A stretch of DNA of 64,000 bases from Planctomycetia bacterium (GTDB lineage: Bacteria > Planctomycetota > Phycisphaerae > Phycisphaerales > SM1A02), in assembly GCA_005790605.1 (NCBI GenBank), contig SXUI01000035.1:1-64000 (forward strand), written 5' to 3'. A model generated the notes under the pieces. The model did not search any database and was not told the DNA's origin. It saw only the letters and a program-made list of their open reading frames with translations. Shown piece by piece: positions 55,537-62,006 of the stretch. Within the stretch, counting starts at the first letter, position 1. Each line of letters starts with the position of its first letter. The position numbers and the translations under genes are program-made.

Positions 55537-55818
55537 CACGATCCAAGCCATTCGTACATGCCTGCGACCCCCGGGGACTTCGGAGGGCTCATCGTTGAGC
55601 CAGTTCGAGGTGCTCGGGGGTTCGCCTTTACCGCCGTCGCAGCAGGGAGACCGCCGAGAACCTTGCTTTGGGAATTTGTTCGCCTTTCCGGCGACTTTCG
55701 GACCTGAGAGCGCAACGGATCACCCACTCCGCTCGTTCAATTCTCTGCCCGCCCTCCAATGCGAGCGAACGATTCCACCCCCTCCGTAGTAGGATGCAAA
55801 CAGACGAGTTGGAACTCT
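55537..55818. other. Intergenic region before the ECF sigma factor
   Basis: No convincing gene on either strand. There is a hairpin GGCTCA-TCGT-TGAGCC (55586-55601) about 50 bases after the B12-fold gene, without a T-run. TAGGAT at about 55792-55797 may be a -10 element for the sigma factor gene, 21 bases before its ATG. The rest is unassigned. Confidence 0.4.
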
Positions 55819-56472
55819 ATGGAAGCTGCAGCAGAAAGACTTCTGATCCGCCGAGCCAAGGCGGGTGACCGCGAGGCGATTGCGGAGCTCATTCGAGCTC
55901 ACCATCGCCCGGTTGAGATGTTTTTGCTTCGATTGTGCGGGCGTCCAGACCTCGCGGAAGACTTGGCGCAGGAAGCGTTCATGCGTGTCATGCGGTCACT
56001 CGATCGATTCGACGAGCGATTCCGCTTCTCCACTTGGCTCTTCACGATCGCGAAGCGGCTTCTCGTCAACAACCTCCAGAAGATGAAGCCAGCGAGCGAC
56101 AGCGAACTCGTCGAGCTCCGAGCCGCTGCCTATACGACACCAGCCACCGAAAACGAAGCACTCGAAGAGTCAGCGCTGGATCGAGGCATGCTGACGACGG
56201 CGCTAGGTTCACTTGAAGAGCCGCAGCTTGAGATTGTCCTGCTCTTCCACCAGCAGGGCTGGCCTGTGCACCGCATTGCGGCGCAACTCAAGATGCCCGA
56301 GGGCACGATCAAGAGTCACCTCTTCCGTGCTCGTCGCAAGATGCTCGCCGCCATTGAGATTGAGCAGGAACACGCAACACAGAAACTGCGCCATACGCGC
56401 GAGACGGCAGACGCCTCGCGCGTGATGACTCGCCGGACACATGAGAGCACGACTGCGGAGCGAATCGCATGA
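55819..56472 (+). CDS. ECF RNA polymerase sigma factor
   Basis: 217 residues from the ATG at 55819 (TTGGAA lies just upstream; the frame extends 20 codons further back without sigma-like text). Region 2: RRAKAGDREAIAELIRAHHR, DLAEDLAQEAFMRVMRSLDR, and FRFSTWLFTIAKRLLVNNLQ. Region 4: ALGSLEEPQLEIVLLFHQQG and the helix-turn-helix VHRIAAQLKMPEGTIKSHLFRARRKM. It is a typical ECF factor. The last 35 residues are basic. Its stop overlaps the next gene, a membrane protein in the position of an anti-sigma factor. Confidence 0.93.
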   Translation: MEAAAERLLIRRAKAGDREAIAELIRAHHRPVEMFLLRLCGRPDLAEDLAQEAFMRVMRSLDRFDERFRFSTWLFTIAKRLLVNNLQKMKPASDSELVELRAAAYTTPATENEALEESALDRGMLTTALGSLEEPQLEIVLLFHQQGWPVHRIAAQLKMPEGTIKSHLFRARRKMLAAIEIEQEHATQKLRHTRETADASRVMTRRTHESTTAERIA

Positions 56473-56915
56473 GACTGCGTGAGCTTCGTTTTCTCTCCTC
56501 CGTGCTTCGATCGTTGCGCAGCGAGACTCGCGGAAGTTCCGTGGAGGAATGCTCGGCGCGCCATGCATCCAACGAAGAAGTGCTGATTGCACAAGTCACG
56601 ACTTCGATCCACCGCCGCATCGCGATCTTTGGTTCAGGCGTTTTGCTCGGTTTGCTTTTGGCGGGTATCGCCGTGGTGGTGCGGAACTCTCGATCATCAG
56701 AGGGAGCGCCGGTCGCCACGCTCATCGGCAACGGTGTGCATCGTCACGGCGAGGCGCTTGAAGCAATCAACACGATGTTTCCCGATGTTCCAGCGGGTTG
56801 CGTCGACTGTCCGGCCCGCCTCCGCATGCGCGAGGCATCCGCAGAACAATCGCCTGACGAGGGCGCGTCGGTCCCCCCGACGACCTCAGCCTGCGCGTTC
56901 TTCGTGAAGGGCTGA
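56469..56915 (+). CDS. Small single-pass membrane protein in anti-sigma position
   Basis: 148 residues, starting in an ATGA overlap with the ECF sigma gene. About 50 N-terminal residues (Arg/Ser-rich, then VLIAQVTTSIHRRIAI) are cytoplasmic. One membrane helix follows (about 51-72, FGSGVLLGLLLAGIAVVV), then a roughly 75-residue external part with a CVDC pair. The position and topology are those of anti-sigma factors, but the zinc-binding HxxxCxxC motif is not seen. It is therefore a candidate anti-sigma factor or partner by context only. Confidence 0.6.
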   Translation: MRLRELRFLSSVLRSLRSETRGSSVEECSARHASNEEVLIAQVTTSIHRRIAIFGSGVLLGLLLAGIAVVVRNSRSSEGAPVATLIGNGVHRHGEALEAINTMFPDVPAGCVDCPARLRMREASAEQSPDEGASVPPTTSACAFFVKG

Positions 56916-56920
56916 GACAG

Positions 56921-58492
56921 ATGCCATCCATCATGCGAGCCGCAACGCGAATCAAGTTCCGAAGGTTGCTGCCTTTCTCTCACCCCCGCCTCGGCGCATG
57001 TGTTCTTCTCTGCGTAGCGCATTCGATCGCGCTCGCCCAAAGCGCGACTCCGGAGCAACGCCCTCCTTCGAAGCCGGTCGTGAGTGAGCACCGGGTTACG
57101 GTCATCGTGACGCCAGGCCTTCCGCTCGCTTCGCAAGGTGCAGATATTCGAGTCGTCGTCGAAGGTGCCCATCTCAACTCCATCGTGCAAGCACTTGGGA
57201 GTGAATCGATCAAGACCGTTGTCCGCGGACTCCTTGGATCGAGCGCATTCGACGGATTGGACGACATCTTCTCCGATTCCTCAAACGATCATGGCGCCCT
57301 AAGCGCTGCACTCGACGGGCGCATCATCATGCTCGCGGGAGATGGATGGGCGCTGGGCGTGGACGCCGGTCCGGCGGGAAATCGTGCGCTCCTGCAGTCA
57401 CTCGGAGCCCAGCTTGCGTCGCCCGGCGTGTACGAAATCAAGAGTCAGGGCGCTCAGGCTCGCACGCGGAACGGTTGGTTGGTGATCTCGCCTCGCGACA
57501 TCGCGAGCGAACAGGTCGCGACCGCATTGTTCGCAATGCTTCCGATGCAAGACGCCGCGCTTCCGCCAGAGGTTGGGCTTCGAATCGGTCTTCGACACGG
57601 CCCGCCAAATCGCGGCGCGACCGCGATTTCCGTGACCACCGCCGATCGACAACTCGTCGTCGCCATCGAAGGGCAATACAAGCAGTCTCCCATCGGTGAA
57701 CTGCAACCGAGTGCTCCGCTCAGCAGGGCGGTCGTGTCGAAGTTTGAGCGCGCGGGTTGCGCTGCGATCGTGCAACCCTGCGACGGACTGCCGTCCGCGA
57801 AGCAGGCCTTTTGGGTCGCAGTTCTGCCGGAGGTGTTGCCACCACCAGCGATGCGTGCAAATCTGAGTGGCGAAAAACTCTATGTGGTCGGACGCGGGTG
57901 CCAGAGAGGCTCCCCCAGCCTCGCCTGCTGCGTGCGCGTCGACGATTACGAACAAGGCTCACAAGATCAGCGCGCTTACATGATGCGGATTGAGAGCGGG
58001 ATCATTCGCTCACTCTCCGGCGGCGCCGGTGTGGAGAACGGCGTTGCTGGCGGCGGAGGCGCCGACCGCCCGTTACTCGGACGATTCCTTGAGCAGCAGT
58101 TTGGTCCGGCTCTGAAGCTCGCACCCATGGCACTCTGCTGGCGAACCGTGCCAACGCCGTGTGGCGGTTGGCAGGTTTACGCAAGCGATTCTGCATGGCT
58201 TGAAAGCGTGTGTGGAGAACTTGAGAGCGCGGGCTGCCCACAAGGAACAACGGAACTGAATGCAGGCATTGGGTTCATTGATGGACCGCATGCGGGCGCG
58301 ATTCTCAGGGAGTGGAGACCGCTCGCAAGGAATGAGGGGGAGCAGGGGAATCCTGGAATTGACGCCCTCGCCTCGCTTCTTGAAGGGTTGGGCATGGTTC
58401 GTTTCCGATATGCAACGCCACAGGATGGAAGAGTGACCGCAGAATTGCGCATCGATCCACCCTCTGCGCTCACAACGAATTCCCTGCATTGA
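56921..58492 (+). CDS. Secreted protein of unknown function
   Basis: 523 residues, five bases after the anti-sigma-like gene. A Sec signal with a long basic N-terminus (RIKFRRLLPF) and hydrophobic LGACVLLCVAHSIALAQ is followed by a large domain rich in hydrophobic beta pieces (HRVTVIVTPGLPLASQGADI, RVVVEGAHLNSIVQALG, IIMLAGDGWALGVDAG). A Gly-rich loop is near 370-380. Several cysteines are found late in the protein. No family is recognised. Close spacing suggests co-transcription with the sigma factor, perhaps as an envelope component under its control. Confidence 0.75.
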   Translation: MPSIMRAATRIKFRRLLPFSHPRLGACVLLCVAHSIALAQSATPEQRPPSKPVVSEHRVTVIVTPGLPLASQGADIRVVVEGAHLNSIVQALGSESIKTVVRGLLGSSAFDGLDDIFSDSSNDHGALSAALDGRIIMLAGDGWALGVDAGPAGNRALLQSLGAQLASPGVYEIKSQGAQARTRNGWLVISPRDIASEQVATALFAMLPMQDAALPPEVGLRIGLRHGPPNRGATAISVTTADRQLVVAIEGQYKQSPIGELQPSAPLSRAVVSKFERAGCAAIVQPCDGLPSAKQAFWVAVLPEVLPPPAMRANLSGEKLYVVGRGCQRGSPSLACCVRVDDYEQGSQDQRAYMMRIESGIIRSLSGGAGVENGVAGGGGADRPLLGRFLEQQFGPALKLAPMALCWRTVPTPCGGWQVYASDSAWLESVCGELESAGCPQGTTELNAGIGFIDGPHAGAILREWRPLARNEGEQGNPGIDALASLLEGLGMVRFRYATPQDGRVTAELRIDPPSALTTNSLH

Positions 58493-58517
58493 ATTGCGAC
58501 TATATTTCACGCGCTTG

Positions 58518-59516
58518 ATGCATCGTGCAGACCCACTCGTGTCCGTTGGGCGAAGCCCGCTCGCGCTGCGATTCGCCCACGCGCTTGAGGAGCAATGTCA
58601 ATGCACCGTTGGTGCGCCACTGCTCCTCGCCGTCAGCGGCGGTGCAGACTCTCGCGCGTTGCTCCTGCTCACTGCGGCGCTTTGGAAACGCAAACGCGCG
58701 CTTGATCAGCTTGCGGTGATCTGCGTCGATCATCAACTCCGCAACGAGAGCGCTCAAGAAGCGCGCGAAGTTGAAAAGTTCGCACAATCGCTCGGCGTTC
58801 GACGAGTCGTGGTCCAAACGGCGAAGGTCTCGCGCGTTGGAAATCTCGAAGCAGCGGCTCGCGCAGCGAGGTGGAAGGCCATTGCCACGGCGATGCGGCG
58901 GCTCGATATCGCGCACGTCGCGACGGCCCATCACGCCGACGATCTGTTCGAGAGTTTCCTCTTTCAACTTGCACGCAAGCGTGGGATGGACGCACTCGCT
59001 GCACTTCCATCTCGTGCGGCCATTCCAGTTCGATCGCCGCGAGGTTGCACGCTGATTCGCCCGCTGCGCGGAATCCGAAAACACGAGCTCGTTGCGCTTC
59101 TCGAGTCGTGCCAGATCGATTGGAGCGAAGATCCAACGAACGCCGCTCCAAACCAGTTTCGTGCTCAAGTGCGTCGCCTCTTGCAAGCGAGCGGCGCGAC
59201 TCTCGATCCGTGTGTGGATGGTCTCGCTCGACTCTGCAATGAGTACGCACATGAGGCTGATCAGACCGCAATCGCCACGAGCCCCGACACGCGGATCGCA
59301 TCCCGTGTGTCGCTCGGGGCGATGTCAGTCGCACAGCGACGACGCGCCGTCCTCCAGCTGTTGCGACGCGCTGGCTGCACCGCTCCGCAACGCAAGACGC
59401 TCGACATGATGCTGCGCGCGATCTTGGACGACGAGGTCCGCCCTCGCGTTTTTCGCTTTCAGGGCGCAACGGTGAAACTCACGCGCGTCTCACTTTGCGC
59501 TGAAGCAATCCCCTGA
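58518..59516 (+). CDS. tilS: tRNA(Ile)-lysidine synthase
   Basis: 332 residues from the ATG at 58518 (a TTG at 58494 is also in frame). TilS converts C34 of the AUA-reading tRNA-Ile to lysidine. PP-loop LLAVSGGADS (about 40-45), VICVDHQLRNES, ARAARWKAI and VATAHHADDLFESFLFQLAR are family signatures. It is close to the short TilS form without a long C-terminal domain. The 3' end overlaps the convergent membrane protein gene by 27 bases. Confidence 0.93.
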   Translation: MHRADPLVSVGRSPLALRFAHALEEQCQCTVGAPLLLAVSGGADSRALLLLTAALWKRKRALDQLAVICVDHQLRNESAQEAREVEKFAQSLGVRRVVVQTAKVSRVGNLEAAARAARWKAIATAMRRLDIAHVATAHHADDLFESFLFQLARKRGMDALAALPSRAAIPVRSPRGCTLIRPLRGIRKHELVALLESCQIDWSEDPTNAAPNQFRAQVRRLLQASGATLDPCVDGLARLCNEYAHEADQTAIATSPDTRIASRVSLGAMSVAQRRRAVLQLLRRAGCTAPQRKTLDMMLRAILDDEVRPRVFRFQGATVKLTRVSLCAEAIP

Positions 59517-60404
59517 GATCTTGTCGCTGTAGCAAGTCACGATGCCGTTCTCGACGCGAAGCGCCGCAGGTGGGGCGACGAGCCACAACGGCCCCTTGGG
59601 TAGCTCAACAAACTCACAGCTCGTGCATGAGATTTGCCCAAGATCGTCGCCCACTGCCGCGACTTCGCCGTCGGCCAAAGGAATCTCAACAGCGATGATG
59701 GGTTCCGCTTGCGGTCCTTGGAAATGCTCGTCGAAGAAGGAGTGGCAAGCAGAACAATGCGGGTTGAAAAACACGACCCACCCGGTGTTTCCACCCGCAG
59801 CAAGCATCGCCTGCACCGTCGGGAGGTATGTTGCGATCAGCGTGGAATTGAGCGGTTGCCCGACCGACTTCTCCAACTGCATGTCAATGACTTGCGCTGG
59901 TGGCGTGAAGCGATCTTCGCGGTGGAAGTCAAGCCGGGCAGCGAGCGACGCTCCGAGCGCGAGTGAGAGGACGACGGCAAGCACACGCCATGCAGAGGAA
60001 AGCCCGAGACGCCCTCGCGACGAAGTCGCCGGAGGCGCCGAGCGCATCGCGAGGATGACCGTCGCTATCCCAAGCGTAAACCCGAACACCATCGAACCGG
60101 ATACTTCGCCGTCGCGGAACGCCCGCGAAATGCTCATGAGTGCGAGAAACGAGAGGAACGCGCCGGCGAACAGTGCAACCCATCGTTCGCGAATGAACAG
60201 GCAGATCAGCGCGAGTGCGAAGAACCCTGCGACGATCGCCTTCGCCGAGGGCTCAATGGCGAGATCAAACCCTCGCATGAGGAATTCACGCAGCGGTGCT
60301 GGGGCCGATTGCGCGCCTTCGAACAAGATCCAAACGCCCGCGAGCGCGAATGCGCTCGTCGCGAAGAGTGGGGGAACGATGGCCGGAACAGAAACTCGCT
60401 TCAT
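59490..60404 (-). CDS. Membrane protein with double-CxxC thioredoxin-like domain
   Basis: 304 residues. The N-terminal half has about four membrane helices (1-155), with charged loops and a strongly hydrophobic helix near 140-156. The C-terminal part (about 165-304) is thioredoxin-like and probably periplasmic. Its active-site-like VVFFNPHCSACHSFFDEHF has Cys217/Cys220. A second CTSC pair is at 260/263, followed by APPAALRVENGIVTC, a cis-Pro-like site. The same layout of two CxxC pairs recurs twice in the next gene. Together they look like a thiol-disulfide relay in the envelope. No DsbA or DsbB family text is seen. It lies 18 bases downstream of its partner gene on the same strand. Confidence 0.75.
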   Translation of the reverse strand: MKRVSVPAIVPPLFATSAFALAGVWILFEGAQSAPAPLREFLMRGFDLAIEPSAKAIVAGFFALALICLFIRERWVALFAGAFLSFLALMSISRAFRDGEVSGSMVFGFTLGIATVILAMRSAPPATSSRGRLGLSSAWRVLAVVLSLALGASLAARLDFHREDRFTPPAQVIDMQLEKSVGQPLNSTLIATYLPTVQAMLAAGGNTGWVVFFNPHCSACHSFFDEHFQGPQAEPIIAVEIPLADGEVAAVGDDLGQISCTSCEFVELPKGPLWLVAPPAALRVENGIVTCYSDKISGDCFSAK

Positions 60405-60422
60405 GTCGATTCGACCGTCGTG

Positions 60423-62006
60423 CTACTTCACGCCTCGAATGCACGCCTCAAGCCGCTCTGCGTCGTCGACATCTTCCACCACGCATGTCACCACGCCATC
60501 CTGCATCGACAGCACGATTGGCGTCGCGATGACATAGTCAGGACCCTTCACAAGCTGCGCGAGTGCGCAGGTGTCGCACGCCATGTCAAGGATCCCGTTT
60601 GGATCAGCGTCAGGGATGGCAACCGCGAGCGTGGGAATGAGCAATGGACCTGTGAAGTGCGTCATCATCAATTCTTGACAGTGGTCACAATCTTGTCGGT
60701 AGTAGATGACGATCTTGCGTCCCTGATTGAGATCCGCAGGCGGCTGCTGGATGAGCTTGCCGAAGTCATTTTCATCGAGTCTTTTTCCGACGAGTCCACC
60801 GAGCTCCGCGACATAAAACCCTTGGAGTTGTGCGGGAGGCGACGGCCACGACTTGACCTGCGGAGTCGGGGGCGAGATCGGAGGATTGGGCGGGAGAGGA
60901 GGCTGCACGGGCACTTCCGTGCTCGCCGCAGCAGTGCCAAGAATGCGATGCAGCGCAACTTCATCATCGACATTGGTACAGACATCCGTGATCACGCCGT
61001 CCTGCGCGCGGATGATGATCGGCGGTGTTCCAAGCATGTACTCCGGCGGCTTAGCTGATTTCGGCGCGAACAACTTCGAGGACGCGCAACCCTCGCAATG
61101 CATGGGCAGTGGGCGAACTCCGCCAAGCGGGATAGCGACCCGAAGGACTGGGATCTTCGATGGCTTGGAAAAGTGTTTCTTGAAGAGCGCTTGACAGTGA
61201 TCGCAAGTTTCGCTGTAGAACACGACAAGTTGCGGCCCCTGCAACATCGTCGCAGGGACAGGACGATCGATCGCGAGGAAGACCGGGATGTCGATCATTC
61301 GCTTCCCGATGGCGTCTTTCCACTTGACGAAAAACAGACTCTGGTAGGACGCGGGAGCATCTGGCCAAGTCGATTGGGTGACGGCGGGCACGGCCGGCTG
61401 TGCTCCATCAGGATTGCTTGCCGTGTCGATGATCGGCGACGGCCGAAAGAATGCGATTCCGAACGAAACAACGGCGATCACCGCCACCATGCCGAATCCA
61501 GGCCCAATGGATCCACGCCGAGGCGGCGCGATGATGGCAAATCCAAGCAGCGTGACATCCATGAGGAACATCAGCCACGCGGGAAGACTTGTTTTCCCGA
61601 AGCAACCGCATCCACCCTTCGCGACATCGGCGAAGCCGCCTTTGGCAAACTGTTGCGCAATGAGAATCGCGAGAATCGCACAGAAGAGTCCTAGCACGGT
61701 TGTTGCGAGCATTCGCGCGAACCGAGGCGCAAACAAAATCGTCAAGGCGACAAAGAGCTCAGCACCGATGAAAAACCGAAAGGCGGCGCCGACGAACACA
61801 CCGAGATCAACGCCAAGCGCACTACCGATTGAGAGGACAGCGTCAAGAACGGGCGGCGGGAGCGTCTTGGGATCAAATGAGGTGAGCTTCCCAATCGCGC
61901 CCGCGCCGATCCAAAGCGGAACAACGAGACGAAGCGCGAAGAACGCAACGACTTGGATTCGGGTCAGAGGCGTCGACGAAACGGAGTCGTTGGATTCGGT
62001 GTGCAT
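60423..62006 (-). CDS. MauE-like membrane domain fused to two thioredoxin-like domains
   Basis: 527 residues. The first part (about 15-190) is a four-helix MauE/DoxX-type domain with the GGCGCFG motif (Cys133/Cys135) typical of MauE. Two related thioredoxin-like domains follow: one with VVFYSETCDHCQALFKKHF (Cys268/271) and CEGC (304/307), the other with VIYYRQDCDHCQELMMTHF (Cys440/443) and CDTC (477/480). Each ends in a cis-Pro-like site (TPPIIIRAQDGV, TPIVLSMQDGV). A proline-rich linker (about 366-392) joins them. MauE is thought to assist disulfide chemistry in methylamine dehydrogenase maturation; no mau genes are present here. The layout suggests a membrane oxidoreductase passing electrons or disulfides through its own domains. 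Confidence 0.8.
   Translation of the reverse strand: MHTESNDSVSSTPLTRIQVVAFFALRLVVPLWIGAGAIGKLTSFDPKTLPPPVLDAVLSIGSALGVDLGVFVGAAFRFFIGAELFVALTILFAPRFARMLATTVLGLFCAILAILIAQQFAKGGFADVAKGGCGCFGKTSLPAWLMFLMDVTLLGFAIIAPPRRGSIGPGFGMVAVIAVVSFGIAFFRPSPIIDTASNPDGAQPAVPAVTQSTWPDAPASYQSLFFVKWKDAIGKRMIDIPVFLAIDRPVPATMLQGPQLVVFYSETCDHCQALFKKHFSKPSKIPVLRVAIPLGGVRPLPMHCEGCASSKLFAPKSAKPPEYMLGTPPIIIRAQDGVITDVCTNVDDEVALHRILGTAAASTEVPVQPPLPPNPPISPPTPQVKSWPSPPAQLQGFYVAELGGLVGKRLDENDFGKLIQQPPADLNQGRKIVIYYRQDCDHCQELMMTHFTGPLLIPTLAVAIPDADPNGILDMACDTCALAQLVKGPDYVIATPIVLSMQDGVVTCVVEDVDDAERLEACIRGVK

Follow-up and report, generated by a model that had tools for sequence, protein, structure and literature searches.

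A MauE-type membrane protein fused to two thioredoxin-like domains, and its neighboring paralogue, as a candidate thiol oxidase system in a planctomycete

In a 64,000-nucleotide stretch of DNA from a Planctomycetia bacterium (assembly GCA_005790605.1, contig SXUI01000035.1; "the window" below means this whole stretch), two open reading frames (ORFs) lie head to tail on the minus strand, 18 nucleotides apart, and encode membrane proteins with thioredoxin-like (Trx-like) domains. Protein A (60423-62006, 527 residues) has a MauE-like membrane part (residues 16-187, 61446-61961) followed by two Trx-like domains, d1 (residues 209-357, 60936-61382) and d2 (residues 383-525, 60432-60860). Protein B (59490-60404, 304 residues), encoded downstream of A, has a membrane part (residues 10-157, 59934-60377) followed by one Trx-like domain (residues 164-304, 59493-59915). 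An earlier, sequence-only reading of this DNA had described three related domains, two fused to MauE and one in the neighboring membrane protein, each with two CxxC pairs and a proline before DGV or NGI, and the ORFs and pairs are indeed arranged in this way. The active-site pairs are CDHC in d1 (residues 268-271, 61194-61205), CDHC in d2 (440-443, 60678-60689) and CSAC in B (217-220, 59745-59756), and the second pairs are CEGC (304-307, 61086-61097), CDTC (477-480, 60567-60578) and CTSC (260-263, 59616-59627), giving distances from first cysteine to first cysteine of 36, 37 and 43 residues, within the range that had been given. The motif proposed around the active site kept its CxxC and HF; its spacing was off by one, the actual pattern being CxxC-x3-[F/M]-x2-HF instead of x4-F (CDHCQALFKKHF, CDHCQELMMTHF, CSACHSFFDEHF), with Met in d2. 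Three features are additional to that description: a CGC motif in the MauE part of A, a third pair of cysteines in the tail of d2 (C508...C522, 60441-60485, from cysteine positions and the family pattern) and of B (C291...C300, 59505-59534), and the MauE-related nature of the membrane part of B. A domain profile searched against the whole genome of this organism matched exactly these three domains and no other (E up to 10).

The structure models of A (predicted local distance difference test, pLDDT, 84; predicted template modeling score, pTM, 0.69) and B (pLDDT 88, pTM 0.62) show the arrangement by which a thioredoxin fold is recognized, that is a strand, then a helix that begins with the CxxC, and a conserved proline that precedes a further strand, and d1 and d2 have a like order of secondary structure. 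Both active-site cysteines and the proline before DGV, DGV and NGI are invariant in 38 domains. Domain profiles compared with the sequences of the PDB matched mostly Trx and PDI proteins, around the active site (best E 6.4e-5). In VIA-align comparisons, where a Z under 8 may reflect a common arrangement only, the nearest solved folds were thiol-disulfide enzymes: B came closest to SdbA (Z 8.8, 3.1 Å over 106 residues), DsbE (8.2) and ResA (7.5), and A to SdbA (8.7), DsbE (8.6), CcmG (8.5 and 8.3) and ResA (7.9), the rows for A covering residues 225-527 and hence both domains without telling d1 from d2. Foldseek gave no match at E up to 0.001 for either model; ResA and DipZ stood near the top for A (E 0.05-0.2), and for B the top rows were mostly unrelated helical bundles, Trx proteins coming up only by VIA-align. 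The models and the fold searches support, with middling scores, the predicted thioredoxin fold for the domains of A and B.

To follow the cysteine pairs we collected 191 domains, 152 of them distinct, and counted on the distinct set. The active CxxC is present in all 152, in part because domains selected for having it were used to build the search model, and reads CDHC in 67 and CEHC in 41 (108 together); a histidine before the second cysteine of the active CxxC is a feature of DsbA and PDI. The second CxxC is whole in 122 of 152 domains, keeps only its second cysteine in 11 and is absent from 19. It is whole in all 36 B-type domains and has been lost in several A lineages. All six cysteines of the B domain are invariant in 32 of 32 aligned proteins, and since 28 of the 31 others are at most 34% identical to B of the window this cannot be chance. 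The idea that the second pair is always lost whole was ruled out, as 11 of the 30 domains without a whole pair keep its second cysteine. Eight of these 11 (L077, L087, L152, L160, L161, L162, L165, L171) have a further cysteine nine residues later, which would fit a rewiring of the pair. Judged by this conservation the second CxxC is a real but accessory feature, and an old one since it is common to both paralogues; it would matter most in B and be dispensable in some A proteins.

What the second CxxC does is a separate matter. The stretch that holds it, from the third strand to the conserved proline, consists in the models of strands and a loop with no long helix, and the pair could have a structural role, by binding zinc or as a fixed disulfide that braces the loop standing in for the usual helix. 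This explanation, which fits either direction of electron flow and to which we give somewhat less than an even chance, draws on that location, on the fact that CxxC is a common zinc motif and on the invariance of the pair in B; in addition a TRASH metal-binding-type model (PF24273, E 0.15, residues 244-264) matches B of the window below threshold, and one of 32 B relatives has a weak zinc ribbon match (E 0.099). A four-cysteine site shared with the tail pair would however depend on the presence of both pairs. Of the 122 domains with a whole second CxxC, 97 also have a whole tail pair, as do 19 of the 30 without, and of the 36 domains lacking a full tail pair, 25 have the second CxxC intact (the tail-cysteine columns were taken as ranges, and these counts may be slightly off). 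Because the two pairs are kept or lost independently an obligate Cys4 zinc site made of both is disfavored, and a zinc site as the sole function of the second CxxC, an option that had been raised from the sequence, is not confirmed. The pair may instead form a fixed disulfide, or a site completed by histidine or aspartate.

The assignment of a MauE domain is weak for A of the window taken alone (PF07291, E 0.0092, 16.7 bits, under the curated cut-off of 27), and a PF07291 search of its own genome gave nothing over threshold, this A being too diverged for that model. Yet when 31 A-family membrane parts were compared with PF07291, 29 matched at E up to 1 (best 4.7e-10), and three of six A relatives scanned exceed the cut-off (38.8, 31.3 and 27.9 bits). 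The membrane part of A has five long helices in the model. Between transmembrane helices TM3 and TM4 it carries CGCFG (residues 133-137, 61596-61610), of which C133, G134, C135 and G137 are invariant in 54 A-family sequences. Neither A nor B has a listed match to VKOR (PF07884, E up to 1), DsbB (PF02600) or DsbD/CcdA (PF02683). The loops between TM2 and TM3 and between TM4 and TM5 are on average positive in the A family (K/R 1.87 against D/E 0.00, and 2.84 against 0.39). From these charges and the model, we infer that the CGC loop and the Trx domains of A would lie on the same, outer side of the membrane.

With hhalign, 133 columns of the membrane parts of B and A could be aligned at a probability of 97.4 and an E of 1.3e-11, and the alignment has a gap where A carries its CGCFG loop. 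A rerun of the profile comparison scored 63.7 (E 8.5e-10), and 53.7 (E 4.4e-8) when the organism's own genus was left out. The controls for these profiles consisted of column shuffles and reversals, with no unrelated membrane family among them: 30 column shuffles scored at most 14.8 (best E 0.14), reversal of either side gave 10.8, and the highest control, the A part against its own reverse, gave 26.6 (E 0.0023, eight columns). On this profile evidence the membrane part of B is MauE-related and lacks the CGCFG loop. The membrane parts of the 32 B relatives scanned showed no consistent Pfam match, and their cysteines are scattered, some occurring in 19 of 26 rows and none being invariant or nearly so.

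Relatives were followed in 61 genomes, the organism's own included, of which 37 belong to the same family and 24 to other families of the order. A was matched in 35 of the 37, and the 24 gave two weak A matches only, both within the membrane part; in most of the 61 there is just one A locus. Long B-like matches, which begin ahead of B residue 65, occur in 17 of the 37. When 151 genomes of the family were searched, 129 matched the B profile at E 1e-20 or better, a level at which A proteins match it too, and 68 had a B-type match at E 2.5e-60 or better, followed by a gap to 7e-40. Across the phylum 15 of 199 genomes, among them the organism's own, contain matches to the domain profile. The other genomes gave 16 matches, of which 11 were read, ten being MauE-Trx fusions with a single CxxC and one (L204) a Trx-like ORF. 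Among named records 107 stretches matched and 95 encode relatives, and the counts per named locus given here use the best 80 of those 95. They are mostly from planctomycetes, with six from Acidobacteria(ota), Thermoanaerobaculia or Sulfomarinibacter (L134, L163, L167, L172, L173, L175), all of which have the second CxxC. B adjoins A in 31 of the 80 loci, A contains two Trx domains in 12, and a separate small Trx ORF follows A in six (L112, L119, L123, L125, L127, L176). A quick tree of the domains (152 rows, without bootstrap) separates A-type from B-type with an SH-aLRT of 100, the exceptions being two very long branches (L075, L100) among the B rows. In the clade of the window d1 and d2 (11 rows each) each form one clade (99 and 98), and L076 and L091, which are also doubled, have their domains in a group of their own (98); the doubling inside A thus arose at least twice, because these groups are separate. 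The duplication expected from the sequence is borne out at both levels, and the A-type and B-type domains are, as this tree places them, old paralogues.

These features lead us to favor, with slightly better than even confidence, a model in which A would be a self-contained exoplasmic thiol oxidase forming the disulfides of exported proteins, with its MauE part as the membrane engine and B as a carrier or substrate-facing partner. Substrate thiols would reduce the CDHC disulfides of d1 and d2, the CGC pair in the TM3-TM4 loop would reoxidize these pairs, and the MauE part would hand the electrons from CGC into the membrane, most likely to a quinone, doing for its fused Trx domains the job of VKOR or DsbB. 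B would not be reoxidizable via its own membrane part because that part lacks the CGC pair, and its most likely part would be that of a carrier or of a partner resembling an isomerase, trading disulfides with A (or with DsbB). Next to the active site, the second CxxC and the tail pair would be accessory; that the second CxxC acts as a redox-active shuttle or regulatory disulfide, rather than binding zinc, is the least certain step. The layout of the parts, their fold, homology and conservation and the pairing of the two genes are shown by the data; we infer the direction of electron flow, the quinone, the transfer from A to B and the role of the second CxxC. The "relay" and "shuttle disulfide" by which the sequence-only reading had labeled the system are plausible in this light. 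There is precedent in VKOR-Trx fusions, which work as oxidases in this manner (PMC3842002, PMC3800646), the Trx pair taking electrons from the substrate and passing them by way of the loop pair and the membrane CxxC to quinone (PMC3800646), and MauE has been speculated to act in disulfide formation in methylamine dehydrogenase (PMC7794033).

Several observations weigh against A as thiol oxidase. The N-terminus of A, inside by the proposed topology, is not positive on average (K/R 0.84 against D/E 1.13), and no cofactor site was identified in A or B. CcmG and ResA, among the nearest folds, are described as reductants in PMC3842002. The own genome has one DsbB match and one DsbD match, each on another contig, and no VKOR (PF07884) match, so that A is not its only candidate oxidase. 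The DsbB match (G000:C62:29586-29858) covers model positions 5-88 of 148 only, a range to which 44 of the 45 DsbB matches listed are likewise confined, in keeping with a shortened or diverged DsbB of the family. In favor of an oxidase, A is matched in every one of the 15 same-family genomes, out of 37, that have no match to either DsbB or VKOR; arguments from such absences are nevertheless weak, because the 24 genomes of other families, where A is near-absent, have no DsbB match and 12 of them no VKOR match either. Over the family A and DsbB-or-VKOR do not exclude each other (20 of 35 genomes with A, 2 of 2 without; p 0.50). VKOR occurs in 3 of 17 genomes with B and 11 of 20 without (p 0.04 in the 37 genomes). 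A link between B and DsbB, with p 0.0002 in the 37 genomes, was dropped at p 0.07 in the 151 (25 of 68 against 19 of 83). All these p values ignore kinship.

Other schemes can be set beside an A-centered oxidase. A more elaborate one, which we regard as rather unlikely, would make A and B a MauE-driven relay, each domain having three cysteine pairs, running from the substrate through the active CxxC, the second CxxC and the tail pair or CGC to a quinone, with B a six-cysteine carrier on a "dead" MauE part that docks on A. DsbB and VKOR are the recognized disulfide-making engines of prokaryotes (PMC4555120); if true, such a relay would be a third membrane engine beside them, and a bacterial Trx domain would contain an internal shuttle pair like those of Ero1 and QSOX.

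Unlikely, and a little more so than the relay, is the reverse direction, in which MauE would send electrons outward and the Trx domains would be reductants or isomerases, in the way of CcdA/DsbD with ResA/CcmG. The presence of ResA, CcmG and DsbE among the nearest folds would suit it, as would a thioredoxin reductase-like gene that 25 of the 80 named loci (L170:6689-7660 and 24 others) carry at a distance of three to seven ORFs from A. That gene however stands on the opposite strand, several genes off, in the clade inspected, DsbD, for the reducing direction, is already present in 60 of the 61 genomes, the C[DE]HC active site is oxidant-like, and the speculation on MauE in PMC7794033 points to disulfide formation.

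We consider it least probable that the machine is no general oxidase but one dedicated to a single client, as MauD/MauE are for methylamine dehydrogenase: that precedent (PMC7794033) and the single A locus of most of the 61 genomes speak for it, whereas no client gene is common to the loci seen and the identified recurrent neighbors are housekeeping genes, with several clusters lacking identification.

Those neighbors were counted within eight ORFs, by a simple choice of ORFs that also picks false ones. A SIS-domain (GmhA-like) gene lies 20 nucleotides upstream of A in the window, and the recurrent genes over the 80 named loci are SIS (27), TilS-like (38), M20 peptidase (30) and the thioredoxin reductase-like gene mentioned above (25). 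They vary by clade, and those identified, which also include NAD kinase and an ABC ATPase, are mostly housekeeping. On the other side tilS (58494-59516, plus strand) converges on B and their 3' ends overlap by 27 nucleotides (59490-59516). Before tilS, at 55759-58492, lie an ORF resembling, by eye, an ECF sigma factor gene, then a small ORF and one for a protein of 523 residues that looks secreted. This protein has no Pfam match and 11 cysteines, and its cluster occurs near A in 21 of the 80 loci; it is a possible client candidate of A and B.

Among known systems, the NACHO/TMEM35A protein, which we take to be DoxX-like, compares with the membrane part of B at Z 8.2 (rmsd 3.7, 114 residues), a value that helical bundles reach easily, and unlike B it has no Trx domain; the literature searched, mostly open-access, gave no paper naming both NACHO and DoxX. 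The BT_3928 family model (NF045576) is matched at E up to 0.01 by the MauE-like part of 15 A-family members out of 54; in the five members inspected this match is limited to the membrane part and falls inside positions 45-168 of 358. ResA, CcmG, DsbE and SdbA resemble the soluble domains in fold (Z 7.5-8.8, 100-132 residues aligned) at an identity of mostly 7-17%, and we know of no second or third cysteine pair as a feature of these proteins. In methylamine dehydrogenase maturation a MauE-type membrane protein has a partner, MauD, which is presumably Trx-like; here the two are one fused chain with extra cysteine pairs and a paralogue, B, and no mau gene is among the identified neighbors of the A/B loci.

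Close in plan are the VKOR-Trx fusions (Synechococcus VKOR, plant LTO1), in which as in A a helical membrane part is fused to an exoplasmic or lumenal Trx-like domain; the plant forms have four conserved cysteines in that domain (PMC4555120). The view that no named system has this layout held in the same literature, but it had left these fusions, LTO1 among them, unmentioned. A differs from them in that its membrane part is of the MauE type without a VKOR match, in having one membrane pair (CGC) where VKOR has a loop pair and a CxxC, and in having two Trx domains and a second protein whose membrane part lacks CGC. The CGC-less MauE paralogue, and an extra pair lost repeatedly in A-type domains with no loss seen in the B-type, would be natural variants with which to dissect each pair. 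The MauE-Trx fusion, kept through a planctomycete family and scattered elsewhere, would make the suspected role of MauE in disulfide formation directly testable. Most likely A and B represent a variant, little described in the literature searched, of the plan of a membrane engine plus Trx domains, built on a different membrane base from that of the VKOR-Trx fusions.

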